NCBI GenBank assembly: GCA_029267445.1
Contig: JAJUIU010000001.1
Coordinates: 62,001 to 126,000, forward strand
DNA from: Rhodospirillaceae bacterium
Lineage (GTDB): Bacteria; Pseudomonadota; Alphaproteobacteria; Azospirillales; Azospirillaceae
Reading direction: 5' to 3'
DNA: 64,000 nucleotides
Shown here: positions 27,113 through 33,270 of the stretch, in pieces
How positions within the stretch are numbered: the stretch's first letter is position 1
Layout: every line of letters starts with the position of its first letter
Program-made: the position numbers and the translations under genes
Notes under the pieces: model-generated
The model's input: the letters and a program-made list of their open reading frames with translations, nothing else
Database searches by the model: none
What the model was told of the DNA's origin: nothing

Positions 27113-27621
27113 CCGATCCGAACAAGCCGCGGGTCGAGATCATCCAGCGGCCGAACAAGCTGCGCGAAAAGGTGGGCGGGTCGTCCGATGGGAAGCCGGG
27201 CCGGATTGATCCGGCCGCGCTCTCACGCGCCGCCACCCATGTCGGCCGCATGGCCGAAGCCCACCAGGTGCAGACGCGCATCGACCTGACGGACCTTCAG
27301 GAAGCCTTCAAGCAGGCGGTCGCCGATCCGGCGAACCGATCCGTCCATATCCGGCGCGTCTTCAAGATCTCCGACGGGATCATGAACCTGGGCAAGATGT
27401 TCGGATACGATCTGCTGTCGGAATTCGCCCATCACCTCAACAGCTTCATCATCAACCTGAAGGAGCCGACGGCGGCCCAGATGCAGGTCGTGGCCCTGCA
27501 CATCGAAGCCATGAACGCCCTCGTCCGCGACGAGATGAAAGGGGACGGCGGACCGATCGGAAAAGCGCTTTCGGAGTCGCTGGCTAAGGCGCGGGATAAG
27601 CTTGGCGCCCGGAAGGCTTAG
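27109..27621 (+). CDS. HPt-like helical protein, unknown role
   Basis: A 170-residue helical protein translated in overlap (ATGA) with the response regulator gene. The segment about 80-115 ([30 protein letters not shown]) has the spacing of the HPt core (x-H-x-L-K-G-x-x-x-x-L-G), but the His position is Arg, so it would be a pseudo-phosphotransferase if the alignment is right. No membrane segment. The N-terminal 60 residues are charged and probably disordered. The coupling with a receiver gene suggests it binds or is bound by that receiver. It overlaps the end of tex by four bases. Confidence 0.65.
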
Positions 27622-29951
27622 CTGCGCCGCTTGGCGAGCGCGTCCGCGAACGCTGCGCCGAAGGCACCGACCGCCGGTTTGGCCGGCTTGCCTGGTGTGC
27701 CGCCTTGCTTTGGACCCGGCTGTGCCGGCTGGGTCCGGGCCCCTTCCTGGGGTGCCGCACCGCCACGTCGTGCGGACTCCGCCGGCTCCCGCATGCGCAT
27801 GGTCAAGGCGACCCGGCGGCGCTTCAGGTCCACCTCCAGCACCTTGACCCTGACAATGTCGCCCGCCTTCACGACGCTGCGCGGGTCTTTGACGAAGCTG
27901 TCCGAAAGCTGGGAGATGTGGACGAGCCCGTCCTGATGGACGCCGACATCGACGAAGGCGCCGAAATTGGTGACGTTCGTGACGATCCCTTCGAGCATCA
28001 TGCCAGGCTGGAGGTCCTTGAGGTCTTCGACGCCGTCCCTGAACGTCGCGGTTTTGAACTCCGGCCGTGGATCGCGGCCGGGTTTCTCCAGCTCCCGAAG
28101 GATGTCCGTCACCGTGGGAATGCCGAACCGCCCGTCGGTGAACGCGGCCGGATCCAGGCTGCGCAGGAAGGCCGAGTCGCCGATGAGCTGCCGGAGGTTC
28201 CGGCCGGTGCGGGCGAGGATGCGTTCGACGACGGGATAGGCTTCGGGGTGCACCGATGACGCGTCCAGCGGGTCGTCGCCGTCGCGGATGCGCAGGAATC
28301 CCGCCGCCTGTTCAAAGGCTTTCGGGCCGAGGCGGGGCACGTCCAGCAACTGCCGCCGACGCCGGAACGCGCCTTGTCCGTCACGATGGGCGACGATGTT
28401 CCGCGCGACTCCTTCGCTGAGGCCCGAGACACGGGCCAGCAGGGGAACCGACGCCGTGTTCAGGTCGACGCCGACGCCGTTGACGCAATCCTCCACCACG
28501 CCGTCCAGGGTGCGGGACAGCTTGGTCGGGCTGACATCGTGCTGATATTGCCCGACCCCGATGGACTTGGGGTCGATCTTGACCAGTTCGGCAAGCGGGT
28601 CCTGCAGCCGGCGGGCGATGGAAACGGCTCCGCGCAAGGAGACGTCCAGGTCCGGAAACTCCTGCGCGGCCGTCTCCGACGCGGAATAGACCGACGCTCC
28701 CGCCTCCGAAACCATGATCTTGGTCAGGCGCAGGTCCGGATGGCGCTTCATCAGGTCCGCCGCCAGCCTGTCCGTCTCGCGGCTGGCGGTCCCGTTGCCG
28801 ATGGCGATCAACTCCACGGCATGGCGGGCGGCCAGTCTGGCGAGTGTCGCGATGGCGCCGTCCCAGTCCTTGCGGGGCTCGTGCGGGTAGACCGTGGCCG
28901 TGTCGACGAGCTTGCCCGTCGCGTCCACCACCGCGACCTTCACGCCCGTCCGGATGCCCGGATCGAGGCCCATGGTCGGCCGGGGACCCGCAGGGGGCGC
29001 CAGCAGCAGGTCCTTGAGGTTCAGGCCGAAGACGGTGATCGCCTCGTCCTCCGCCCGCTCGCGCACCGAGCCCATGAGGTCGAGTTCGATGTGGAGCGCG
29101 ATCTTCGTCCGCCAAGCCCACCGGCAGGTCTCCAGGAGCCAGCGGTCGGCCGCGCGTCCGCGATCGGCGATCCCGAAGCGCGCCGCGATCATCGCCTCGG
29201 CCGGGTGCGGATGCCCGGCCAGGGGCTCGTCACCGACCTCCATCCGGAGATCGAGAACCCCGGCGGCGCGGCCCCGGAACAGGGCGAGCGCGCGATGCGA
29301 GGGAAGCTTCTTCAGCGGTTCGGCAAAGTCGAAGTAATCGCTGAACTTGGCGCCCTCGTCGGCCTTACCGTCGACGAGCCTGGACACGATACGGCCATGG
29401 TCGTGGCTGTACGCACGAAGCGCGCCGACCAGTTCCGCCGTTTCGCCCATGCGCTCGACCAGGATGGCGCGGGCCCCGTCAAGCGCCGACTTCGCGTCCG
29501 GAACGCCGCGTTCATCCGAGATGAAGGCCGCCGCCTCCTGCGCCGGCTCCCGCGATGGGTCGTCCAGCAGAAGGTCCGCCAAGGGCTCCAGTCCCGCCTC
29601 GCGGGCGATCATCGCCTTGGTGCGCCGCTTCGGGCGATAGGGGAGGTAGAGATCCTCGAGCCGGGTCTTGGTGTCGGCGGCATCGATCTCCGCCGCCAGG
29701 GCGGGCGTCATCTTGCCCTGTTCGGCGATGCTGGCCCTGATGGCCGAACGGCGCTCCTCCAGTTCCCGCAGGTAACGAAGGCGCTCATCAAGCGTGCGCA
29801 ACTGCGTGTCGTCCAGCCCGCCCGTGGCTTCCTTCCGGTAGCGGGCGATGAAGGGCACGGTCGAGCCCTCGTCGAGAAGGCTGATCGCCGCGTCGACCTG
29901 TTGCGGGCGGGCGCCGAGTTCCTGGGCGATGCGCTGGGCGATGTCGAGCAT
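27618..29951 (-). CDS. tex: Tex family RNA-binding transcription accessory protein
   Basis: Large nucleic-acid-binding protein of 777 residues, normal for Tex. The N-terminus [23 protein letters not shown] and [21 protein letters not shown] match Tex; the YqgF-like (RuvX fold) region (about 310-450, [15 protein letters not shown]), HhH motifs (about 480-560, [12 protein letters not shown]) and a C-terminal S1 domain (about 630-700, [34 protein letters not shown]) follow. After S1 the tail is low complexity, rich in Gly, Pro and Ala. Start ATG 29951 fits the family; the open frame upstream has no Tex character. Confidence 0.95.
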
Positions 29952-30112
29952 GGGGGAGGGCGGTCTCACGCGGGATGGACGGCTGCATACCGCAGCCGGG
30001 CGGGAGAGGCCAAGCGCCTTCGGGTCCTCTCCCGCCCTGCCGGCTTCGTGGTCCGAGGGCGCTGGACATGGCTCTGTGACATCGGTGGGGCGGCGACTCG
30101 GGCCGGCGTGGC

Positions 30113-30142
30113 TTAACCCGTGCTTAACGCCGCAGGTATAGA
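30113..30142 (+). promoter_or_regulatory. CtrA box and promoter of sRNA candidate 1
   Basis: TTAA-N7-TTAAC at 30113-30128 is an exact match to the CtrA full site. TTAACC (30113-30118) also serves as a -35 element, spaced 18 bases from a good -10 TATAGA (30137-30142). The predicted start is near 30148. The box thus covers the -35 region, as in CtrA-activated promoters of Caulobacter-type bacteria. Confidence 0.6.
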
Positions 30143-30147
30143 AGGAG

Positions 30148-30219
30148 AGGGCAACTGTGGTTGCGTTCCTCCCTAGTATGCCTTGACGCCCCGGCACGCT
30201 CGCGTGCCGGGGCTTTTTT
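30148..30219 (+). ncRNA. MmgR (alpha-r8)-like small RNA candidate 1
   Basis: A short transcript of about 72 bases is predicted in the gap between tex and the ExeA-like gene; no protein starts here. It begins with a hairpin (GCAAC-TGTG-GTTGC, 30151-30164), then a single-stranded stretch with TTCCTCCCT (30166-30174), and ends in a perfect 10-base-pair terminator stem (30188-30213) followed by six T. As I recall, the alpha-r8/MmgR family has the same order of hairpin, UUUCCUCCCU and terminator; this copy has nine of the ten bases. The promoter lies directly upstream. The CU-rich motif could pair with ribosome sites. Confidence 0.6.
30188..30219 (+). terminator. Rho-independent terminator of sRNA candidate 1
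   Basis: Stem GCCCCGGCAC with GTGCCGGGGC (10 pairs, six-base loop) followed by TTTTTT on the plus strand. It can only serve a plus-strand transcript started in the preceding gap, because tex and the next gene are both on the minus strand. Confidence 0.85.
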
Positions 30220-30243
30220 CGCCCACGGGTTTCTGTTGTCGGA

Positions 30244-31929
30244 TCAAGGCCGAAGGGTCGGCACCGGCGGACGGTTGCCGCCGTCCTCCGCTGTCCTTGT
30301 CTCAGGCTGGCGGGCGGGAGCGGTTTCCGCGCCGATCGGCCGGTTCGTGCGCCGACGCTGGTCGATGCCGTCAAGGAGGCGGGTCATTTCCCGGTTGGCC
30401 GGCTGCACCCGTAGCGCGCGTTGGTAATAGGTGCGGGCGAAATCCCATTCTCCACGCCCCTCCGCCTGCCGTCCCCAGACGCGATAAGTCTCGATCATGC
30501 GCTGTCGCATGGCCGGAATCGCGGAGTGCTCGGGGTCTATCGAGGCGAGTTCCTGAAGCGTTTCAAGCGCGTTGTCGCCGGTCGGGGTGGTCAGGCGGCG
30601 CTGCGACATCTGCGCCTCGGCCTGCGATAGAAGAGCCAGGATGCGCCGCTCTTCGGCGGGCGAGCGTCGTATCTCCCCGGACGGTTGCGGGGCCGCCGGG
30701 ACCGCCGCCACCGAAGTTCCGGCGGATGCGGCGGACCCGGGCGTTGGGTTCGTCGTCGCGGTGTCCGCCGGAGCCGGGATCGGGGTCGTGCCGTCGTTGG
30801 CCCCACCGGTCGTACCCGTCCGCGCCGGTGGCGGCTCCGGTTCCCGGAACGGGGCCACGTCATCCTGCTCCAAGGGTACGGACTCCGCGGCCGGGGGCGG
30901 CGGCACCGGATCGACCTGCTCGGCGGCGTCGGCTTGAGCCGCAGTCGTGTCCGCTAGCCCGACCTCGGGGTCCACAGTCGGTTCCGCATCGTCCCGCTGG
31001 AGAGAAGGTTGAATGACTGGTTCAGCAGGTTGCGGAACCGTGGACGGATCGGCATCGGGTGGCGTGGAGCCCGCCGTGCGGTCAGGGGTGCCGCTGACCG
31101 TTGCCGCCGTCACCCCGCTAGGCATGCCGGGCTCTGTCGGGGACGGGCTCGACCGTTCCGCGAACAATCCGCCAGATGTTCCTTCGCGGAGGGAGAACGG
31201 GTCCTGACCGATGACATACATCGCCACGGCTGCGAGCAAGGCCGTGGTCGCCACCGCCATCCAGCCGGGACCCCGCCGGGACCCGGTCGGCGATGCACCA
31301 TCCTCGCGCTCCTCGCGGACGCCGGGCGTGCGTGCGATCAGCCTGTCACGTGATGTTTCGGGCGGGTCGGTTGCCTGTGGCGTCACCGGATCGAGGCGGT
31401 AGATCGTGCCCACCGCCGCGATCGCGGCGTCGAGGTCGGCCTGCTTCAGGCGTAGTTCCAGGTCCGGACCGCCCGACACAAGCACCTGGAGCGCGGTTCC
31501 GGACGGTGTCGTGTCCGCCGACAGGTCCATCAGGTCGCGCAGTGTGTCGGGCGTCAGGCGGTCTGCGTTATCCACCATCAGGACGCCGCTTCCAGACCGG
31601 TCCAGGCGCTTCTCAAGCGTGTCCAGCAGCCCTTCGAAGTCGAGCATATCGGCGCGGGCGCCCAGCTGGCTGCGTCCCGCCACCTCGATCAAGTCCTCCA
31701 CCAGGACGCCTTCCGTGGCGCCGACGGTGAGAACCATCATATCGTCATTCTCTAGACGGCGGGCCAGCTTGGCGAGCAGGCCGATCCGCTCTCCCTCCCT
31801 CGTCCCCACCAGCGCCACGAGACGCCGTCCGCCGACGAGGGCGAGCAGGAGGCCGCCGAAAATGGCTTCTGCATCGTTTCGAGGCGCATCGCTGTCAGGC
31901 GTGGCTGCGGCCAGCATCGCGGATGGCAT
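30244..31929 (-). CDS. ExeA/DamX-like protein with degenerate P-loop and TPR tail
   Basis: A 561-residue membrane-anchored protein. Residues about 15-205 have the fold order of an ExeA/GspA-type AAA domain: a P-loop region written as [12 protein letters not shown], where the invariant GK(S/T) is missing, and a Walker B-like [12 protein letters not shown] membrane segment lies at about 225-245 ([18 protein letters not shown]), then about 200 residues of Pro/Thr/Ala-rich linker, and a C-terminal TPR-like part ([20 protein letters not shown]). DamX of E. coli has a similar AAA-membrane-linker plan, ending in SPOR instead. Start ATG 31929 (MPSAMLAAA). ATP hydrolysis is doubtful. Confidence 0.7.
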
Positions 31930-32249
31930 TCCGAGGCTCGCTCCGTTCTGTTGAAGCCGGTATGCCGGCCCCTTGCCGACCACGCCACGGGTCGGGGGGT
32001 GGCTTACTCGCCCGTCAACGCCACCGGTACCGGTTGGGTCCAGCCGGCCGGGTCTCAATGCTGGAGTTTAGTCCGGGTGATGGTGCGGTGCCGCAGCGCG
32101 GACGGCGTAAGCCGATACGGTCGCGCGCGTGTCGGACGGGGCGGGTGTCGGAGGGTGTGCCGACCTTGCCTTTCGGCTAGTCCAATAGATGGGCGGAGCG
32201 CGCCCTTAGGCAACTTGGACGGTTGCCTATCGCCACGTTGGGATGGCAG
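31930..32249. other. Gap upstream of the ExeA-like gene
   Basis: About 320 bases with no gene I can support. Open frames exist on both strands but have no recognisable protein character. The region lies between the start of the ExeA-like gene and the end of sRNA candidate 2, so it must hold the promoter of the former; I see no clear -35/-10 pair. Confidence 0.4.
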
Positions 32250-32276
32250 AAAAAAGGCCGCTCCGAGGAGCGGCCT
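32250..32276 (-). terminator. Rho-independent terminator of sRNA candidate 2
   Basis: On the minus strand, AGGCCGCTCC-TC-GGAGCGGCCT is followed by T run (A run 32250-32255 on plus). Its T side faces the minus-strand product only, so it does not serve otsB or anything on the plus strand. Confidence 0.85.
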
Positions 32277-32329
32277 GAGTTTAGGGAGGAAACGCCCGAT
32301 AAGGGCAACGCAGCAATCGCTTGCTGCGA
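32250..32329 (-). ncRNA. MmgR (alpha-r8)-like small RNA candidate 2
   Basis: A predicted minus-strand transcript of about 80 bases. From the 5' end: an eight-pair hairpin (CGCAGCAA, loop GCGA, TTGCTGCG), a four-pair hairpin (GCCC/GGGC), the single-stranded motif TTTCCTCCCT (complement of 32283-32292, ten of ten matches to the alpha-r8 motif as I recall it), and a 10-pair terminator with six T (32276 down to 32250). In Sinorhizobium MmgR is 77 bases, binds Hfq and limits polyhydroxybutyrate granules. The size, order of elements and motif all agree. Confidence 0.7.
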
Positions 32330-32334
32330 TGCAC

Positions 32335-32363
32335 AATATGGACCCGATCGAAACGATTGGCAA
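32335..32363 (-). promoter_or_regulatory. Promoter of sRNA candidate 2
   Basis: Minus-strand -35 TTGCCA (32363-32358) and -10 CATATT (32340-32335) are separated by 17 bases. The start is expected near 32328-32329, at the base of the first hairpin. No CtrA box is seen here, unlike the promoter of sRNA candidate 1. A GGCCCC-GGAA-GGGGCC hairpin lies just upstream (about 32374-32389). Confidence 0.6.
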
Positions 32364-32469
32364 CAGCGCGAATGGCCCCGGAAGGGGCCTTCGTCGTTTC
32401 GTCGCACCTTTTGTTGCCGTTCAGCACCACTCCGAGCGGGTGAAATGCCGCACCAGGGCTAACGAAATC

Positions 32470-33270
32470 ATGGAACTGCAAGACTTTCCGTCGTTCTCCA
32501 GCGATCCGCTGGACCATTCCGACATCGTCCGCCTTGCGGATTGGCTCGGGGCGCGGGCTCCAGCGCTGTTCCTGGATTACGACGGGACCCTTGCCGACAT
32601 CGCGCCCCGGCCGGAGATGGCGGTACTTCCAGCCGAGATGCGCGCCCGGGTCGGCCGCGTCGCGACCGGTAGTCCCACAGCCGTGGTCAGTGGACGCGAC
32701 CTCCAGGACGTCAAGGCACTGGTTGGACTTCCGGATCTCATCTATGCCGGCAGCCACGGGCTGGACATCGAGGCGCCGTCAGGCGTCCACCGTTTCGGGG
32801 ACGAGTTCCGCCCCGCCATCGAGCGGGCGCAGGCGGCGCTCGAACGCGCGCTCGCCCATATCGAGGGGGCGTTCGTGCAGCCGAAGCGTTACGCGATCAC
32901 GGTGCATACACGGCTTGTCGACCCGGCGGCCAAACCGGAGGTCGCGGCCGTGGTGAAGTCGGTTCTCGCCGGGGAGCCGACCCTGCGCTGGATGGGCGGC
33001 AAGGAGATGCACGAGCTTCGCCCGGATATGCCGTGGGACAAGGGGAAGGCGGTGCTGCATCTCATTGATGTCGAGGGATTGGGGGACCGTTTCCCCGTCT
33101 ACATCGGCGACGATGTGACCGATGAGGACGCCTTCAGGGCCATATCCGACCGGGGCCTCGGGATCATGGTCGGTCATCATGGCACCCCTACCGCCGCCGC
33201 GGTCAGGCTGAGGGACGTGGCGGCGGTCGGGATCTTCCTGGACCATTTGGCCGAGAGGCTTTCGGCCTGA
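32470..33270 (+). CDS. otsB: Trehalose-6-phosphate phosphatase
   Basis: HAD-superfamily enzyme making trehalose from trehalose 6-phosphate, 266 residues. HAD motif I is LDYDGTLA (D36, D38), motif II the Ser in VVSGRD, motif III a Lys near WDKGKA and motif IV GDDVTDEDAF, all intact. The start is the ATG 32470 (MELQDFPSF), because the earlier open frame shows no HAD features. No otsA (synthase) is in the window, so the substrate must be made by a gene elsewhere. Trehalose serves osmotic and desiccation protection. It is divergent from sRNA candidate 2. Confidence 0.92.
   Translation: MELQDFPSFSSDPLDHSDIVRLADWLGARAPALFLDYDGTLADIAPRPEMAVLPAEMRARVGRVATGSPTAVVSGRDLQDVKALVGLPDLIYAGSHGLDIEAPSGVHRFGDEFRPAIERAQAALERALAHIEGAFVQPKRYAITVHTRLVDPAAKPEVAAVVKSVLAGEPTLRWMGGKEMHELRPDMPWDKGKAVLHLIDVEGLGDRFPVYIGDDVTDEDAFRAISDRGLGIMVGHHGTPTAAAVRLRDVAAVGIFLDHLAERLSA

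Follow-up and report, generated by a model that had tools for sequence, protein, structure and literature searches.

A tex-linked sibling of the MmgR (αr8) small RNA with a predicted CtrA site in its promoter, conserved in Azospirillaceae

The window, which is the whole 64-kb stretch of DNA analysed here, contains two small RNA (sRNA) genes built on the same plan. They lie on opposite strands and face each other, with a single protein gene in between. On the minus strand lies a regular MmgR/αr8 RNA. The plus-strand copy appears to be an old sibling, linked to the gene tex, with a predicted CtrA site over the -35 region of its promoter. We consider it likely, with good confidence, that the two are trans-acting siblings that pair with Shine-Dalgarno regions and respond to different inputs, the tex-linked αr8-like sibling being driven by CtrA. 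The first-pass annotation of this DNA had described the convergent pair, and the anatomy that it gave was confirmed for both copies.

Background

The αr8/MmgR family (RF00519; MmgR of Sinorhizobium meliloti) has a 5' hairpin, a UUUCCUCCCU core and a rho-independent terminator, a plan that is shared by the RNAs described here, except for one T that the window's plus-strand copy lacks in its core. In Caulobacter, where the αR8 siblings are named SisA-D, UUUCCUCCCU is an anti-Shine-Dalgarno element that SisA, together with Hfq, probably uses for the repression of its targets (PMC12559287). The promoter of mmgR in S. meliloti contains the site TTGTGCACCGCAGCA, which is bound by PhaR (PMC12542648). 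The PhaR consensus derived from footprints is TGCRNYGCASMA (PMC6201568). Most CtrA-activated promoters of Caulobacter have a single site at -35, for which TTAA-N7-TTAA is the usual layout (PMC11264516).

Results

The coordinates of the locus are given in Table 1. The two sRNAs and the gene between them are flanked by tex on the left, running leftwards, and by otsB on the right, running rightwards. The protein between the sRNAs had been labelled ExeA/DamX-like; the DamX-like part of the label was dropped since a SPOR domain was not found. Its only matches are to AAA_22 and, far below the cut-off, to TIGR03015.

Table 1. Features of the sRNA locus in the window
Feature	Position	Strand	Basis
tex, divergent from the CtrA-type sRNA	27618..29951	-	Pfam Tex domains; synteny
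CtrA box TTAACCCGTGCTTAA (TTAA-N7-TTAA), promoter of the plus-strand sRNA	30113..30127	+	predicted site, full 8/8
Probable -10 element TATAGA	30137..30142	+	read from the sequence
CtrA-type αr8-like sRNA gene	about 30149..30219	+	family conservation; fold z -4.3; suhB model 22.4 bits, below cut-off
5' hairpin GCAAC-UGUG-GUUGC of the plus-strand sRNA	30151-30164	+	
Core TTCCTCCCT of the plus-strand sRNA	30166-30174	+	
Terminator of the plus-strand sRNA	30188-30219	+	11-bp GC stem 30188-30213, then six T
ExeA-like AAA_22 ATPase gene between the sRNAs	30244..31929 (about 31929)	-	Pfam AAA_22 34.4 bits; start codon uncertain
Canonical αr8/MmgR (suhB, RF00519) sRNA gene	32241..32313 (32313 to 32241)	-	60.2 bits with cmscan over the whole model (E 6.7e-10)
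PhaR/AniA-like site TGCATCGCAGCA, promoter upstream of the canonical sRNA	32322..32333	-	fits consensus TGCRNYGCASMA
otsB (trehalose-phosphatase), kept beside the canonical sRNA	32470..33270	+	Pfam and TIGR00685 above cut-off; synteny

Both RNAs had been described as MmgR (αr8)-like, and the minus-strand copy is a full member of the family. It scores 60.2 bits with the Rfam model suhB/mmgR (RF00519), whose gathering cut-off is 41 bits, and its predicted fold is better than that of 200/200 shuffled sequences. Sequence and fold show a GCCC hairpin, the stretch TTTCCTCCCT, a terminator with a 9-bp stem and a T run, and the fixed 10-mer UUUCCUCCCU of the family is complete. The site TGCATCGCAGCA, read at 32333-32322, matches the PhaR consensus, as expected for a promoter of the PhaR/AniA regulon, and is similar to the site that PhaR binds at mmgR of S. 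meliloti. A TGC-N3-GCA dyad is present at the same position in 25 of the 46 fetched sites that are not of the CtrA type, a set that includes a few non-αr8 sites. Membership in the family and the PhaR-like promoter site are both shared with S. meliloti MmgR, and the minus-strand copy is probably repressed by PhaR, an input from the state of carbon storage.

The genome has a third αr8 copy, the second one above the cut-off (L002; 41.5 bits, G000:C51:132747-132821, minus strand), which adjoins a permease-like gene and has the core TTCCTCCCT, as does the CtrA-type copy of the window. The Skermanella-type genomes of genus g8 (G016, G025, G030 and G034) contain up to ~15 matches to the suhB model each (E<=0.05), which is many for an sRNA.

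Membership in the strict sense does not extend to the plus-strand copy. It too has a 5' hairpin followed by the core and a rho-independent terminator, and its fold beats 200/200 shuffles. However, it reaches only 22.4 bits against the cut-off of 41, and its core has 9/10 bases of UUUCCUCCCU, with one T missing. Because of these two shortfalls we call it an αr8-like sibling and not a certified member. Its relatives behave in the same way, with 28.8-39.6 bits on the suhB model and none at 41 among all copies listed and tested. The 10-mer is complete in four of them (G002, G012, G032 and G027), and many others have UUUCCUCCCG. Since the Rfam search was below its cut-off, conservation was used instead.

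Hairpin and motif are conserved in close relatives, as the first-pass annotation required. Three other genera have exactly the same sequence, GGCAACUGUGGUUGCGUUUCCUCCCUAG, from which the window copy differs by its missing T; with that exception, hairpin and core are common to all four genera. We built a model, R1, of 46 nt from 16 copies, with no promoter sequence included. Among 82 genomes of the family, 54 have a match to it at E<1e-8, and in 52 of these 54 the RNA is divergent from tex, at a median of 211 nt from the tex match. In the other two there is a contig break (G085) or no tex match in the genome (G014). RNAalifold on the aligned siblings recovers the 5' hairpin only, without covariation; by a simple script, the 5' stems differ among siblings (GCAAC/GUUGC, CGCAC/GUGCG, CCAAG/CUUGG). 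By this comparative reading, the plus-strand copy is real despite its 22.4 bits and its missing T.

The pair itself was also sought in relatives. G012 and G027 have the gene order of the window: tex, CtrA-type sRNA, ExeA-like gene, canonical sRNA, otsB. It is the same in G002, where ~7 kb separate the ExeA-like gene from the CtrA-type sRNA. This interval is likewise longer in G032, where a canonical copy looked for beside otsB was not found. Just ~440 nt separate the two sRNAs in G022, and no ExeA-like gene lies between them. An ExeA-like gene is near the canonical sRNA in many relatives, and the conserved neighbour of the CtrA-type sRNA is tex, not the ExeA-like gene. Since the synteny varies in this way, the sRNA pair is independent of the gene between its members.

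Tandem duplicates of the CtrA-type sRNA are found beside tex in G083 (L169), G068 (L170), G084 (L239, L344), G080 (L334, L335) and G093 (L347, L348), and each duplicate has a CtrA-like box of its own.

The box of the window copy lies near the -35 of the sRNA promoter, as expected for the CtrA regulon, and it is the single occurrence of TTAA-N7-TTAA in the 64 kb; none of 100 shuffled versions had any. The predicted transcription start, at ~30149, is ~22 nt past the second half-site and immediately 5' of the hairpin, and in most relatives a TATA-like sequence is present 9-12 nt past the box. Boxes were scored as TTNAC-N6-TTAA, with at least 7/8 half-site bases. Because the R1 model contained no promoter, the presence of a box in its matches is an independent test. 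All 30 of the first R1 loci, about 20 of them absent from the model, have TTNA-N7-TTAA or better (>=7/8) at 38-41 nt 5' of the core. Further R1 hits have it in 19 of 20 cases, a score that shuffled upstream stretches reach in 12 of 20,000 (0.06%). Overall the box is present in 49/50 copies examined outside the Skermanella-type genus, in which it takes the form TTAAC-N6-TTGA at 43-44 nt from the core (5/5 copies). Among ten representatives the information content per column is 1.66 and 1.78 bits in the two half-sites, 0.64 in the spacer and 0.33 in the 18 nt that precede the box.

When the spacing between half-sites was left free, from 0 to 20, in a family-wide pattern search, all hits that combined this RNA anatomy with a clean two-half-site box (7/7) had a spacing of 7. 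Other spacings were seen in two AT-rich stretches and in one more αr8-like hit, from G014. The CtrA box is absent from typical αr8 copies, and none was found in samples elsewhere in the class. The other αr8-like sites fetched mostly have a box score of 6 or less, the exception being a chance match from the class-wide search, and αr8-like model hits outside the family score 4-5. No true case of the same arrangement was found outside the family in 385 genomes across the class. Class-wide pattern matches outside the family differed in spacing or lacked the αr8 anatomy and were rejected. A pattern scan of the whole collection gave one true case, in Skermanella stibiiresistens, and the rest looked like chance.

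Two groups depart from this picture. In a subgroup of genus g12 (L154-L158), a TTAA-N7-TTAA box (e.g. TTAAGACTTTTTTAA) lies between a canonical αr8 gene and tex, and a CtrA-type RNA was not found beside this remaining box; the RNA may have been lost or changed. In genus g2 (L353-L359), a copy with the hairpin GCAACTTGGTTGC and a full core is situated away from tex. Its box is degenerate (TAAA-N7-TTCA) and has a TGTGCGGTGCGG element 5' of it, possibly a rewiring of the promoter.

Which mRNAs might the CtrA-type sRNA act on? Perfect matches to AGGGAGGAA next to an ATG are found at only four genes of its own genome. These candidate targets read, from their sequence, as signal peptidase I, 3-hydroxyacyl-CoA dehydrogenase and two CO/xanthine-dehydrogenase-type subunits. 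Phasin start regions from 11 genomes have no consistent strong pairing with the sRNA, and the top phasin of the genome itself pairs weakly (-10.9 kcal/mol). At G000:C46:51602 (L299), a start region of the form AGGGAGGAACGCG-ATG is complementary over 12 nt to GCGUUCCUCCCU in the CtrA-type sRNA of the window; the gene that follows looks, from its sequence, like signal peptidase I.

Discussion

The first-pass annotation had supposed that the two siblings could differ in their expression, with a tie to CtrA for one of them. The comparative data support this and show different promoters for the two: the box is conserved and the genome encodes a CtrA with 71% identity to that of Caulobacter over 226 aa, which together suggest the tie. 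Since the predicted site covers the -35 region, phosphorylated CtrA probably switches the plus-strand sRNA on. Transcription would begin at ~30149, with CtrA acting as an activator. The (U)UUCCUCCC core would then pair, assisted by Hfq, with Shine-Dalgarno regions of mRNAs, and the targets would be repressed in the cell state in which CtrA is active. One pairing core would thus have two inputs, PhaR and CtrA.

Might CtrA instead bind the box as a repressor, so that the sRNA is restricted to cells without CtrA, such as stalked-like or encysting ones? CtrA can repress from -35/-10 sites, as at the strong hemE promoter (PMC11264516). However, activation in Caulobacter usually goes with one site at -35 (PMC11264516), and a second site was not seen over the -10 of the plus-strand sRNA, so that we regard repression as unlikely. 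It is distinctly improbable that the plus-strand copy is an αr8 duplicate in decay, with no function in this strain. The T missing from its core, its 22.4 bits on the suhB model and a predicted fold in which the core can pair in part with upstream sequence would all be in keeping with decay, but hairpin, box (a full 8/8), spacing and terminator are all intact. Least probable of all, and very much so, is that the box serves the divergent tex and the short RNA is incidental: the box does lie between the two genes, and Skermanella-type genomes have another TTAA-N7-TTAA ~110 nt before tex (L160-L164), but the box-to-core distance is nearly fixed at 38-44 nt everywhere while the tex side varies from 136 to 2651 nt, the directional form TTNAC-N6-TTAA, with a TATA-like -10 behind it, is oriented towards the sRNA, and both tandem copies and copies not beside tex have boxes of their own. 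The second site near the tex start suggests that tex itself may be CtrA-controlled in Skermanella-type genomes. Activation of the sRNA by CtrA is the reading that we prefer. Weighing against it are the incomplete core and possible core pairing of the window copy, the suhB scores below cut-off in all tested copies of this type, and the similar RNA of genus g2, with its degenerate box and no link to tex.

The sibling differs from known αr8/MmgR RNAs in its score below the cut-off, its GCAAC/GUUGC hairpin, its neighbour tex and its CtrA box in place of the PhaR-like site. The SisA-D RNAs are similar as a set of several siblings with the same anti-Shine-Dalgarno core and separate promoters; in that case no motif is common to the four promoters and no link to CtrA is reported (PMC12559287), whereas here the box is kept across several genera. 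Two other RNAs are set apart by their descriptions. CcnA of Caulobacter is likewise an sRNA under CtrA control, but it has a CCCC Loop A, is a gene of the replication origin, acts on ctrA and gcrA, and is not an αr8 RNA (PMC8959179). EcpR1 of S. meliloti is a trans-sRNA linked to alphaproteobacterial cell-cycle control, but it is reported to be stress-induced (PMC4414408). A description of a tex-linked αr8 sibling with a CtrA box was not found in the literature searched, the main αr8 phylogeny paper being outside its reach.

Conclusions

A sibling lineage of αr8 exists that scans at the Rfam threshold miss. Siblings that share a pairing core are believed to differ chiefly in the timing of their synthesis, and here the DNA itself points to both inputs: PhaR for carbon storage, and CtrA for cell cycle and development. 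The CtrA box in the sibling promoter suggests a link from cell cycle and development to post-transcriptional control.

The family with this conserved input has plant-associated and cyst-forming members. In Rhodospirillum centenum, whose cysts contain much PHB, deletion of ctrA enhances cyst formation and phosphomimetic CtrA suppresses it (PMC4340629). In S. meliloti, PHB is kept in check by MmgR (PMC8401924). These observations would be connected by an MmgR sibling under the control of CtrA. In Azospirillaceae, active CtrA would keep the αr8-like RNA present and PHB-related translation held down in motile vegetative cells; when CtrA falls, the RNA would be gone and PHB storage and cysts would proceed. 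This scenario is speculative and we think it rather doubtful, the small target checks neither supporting nor excluding a link to PHB storage or encystment. With such a sibling in view, the effect of CtrA on encystment, an old question, becomes testable.
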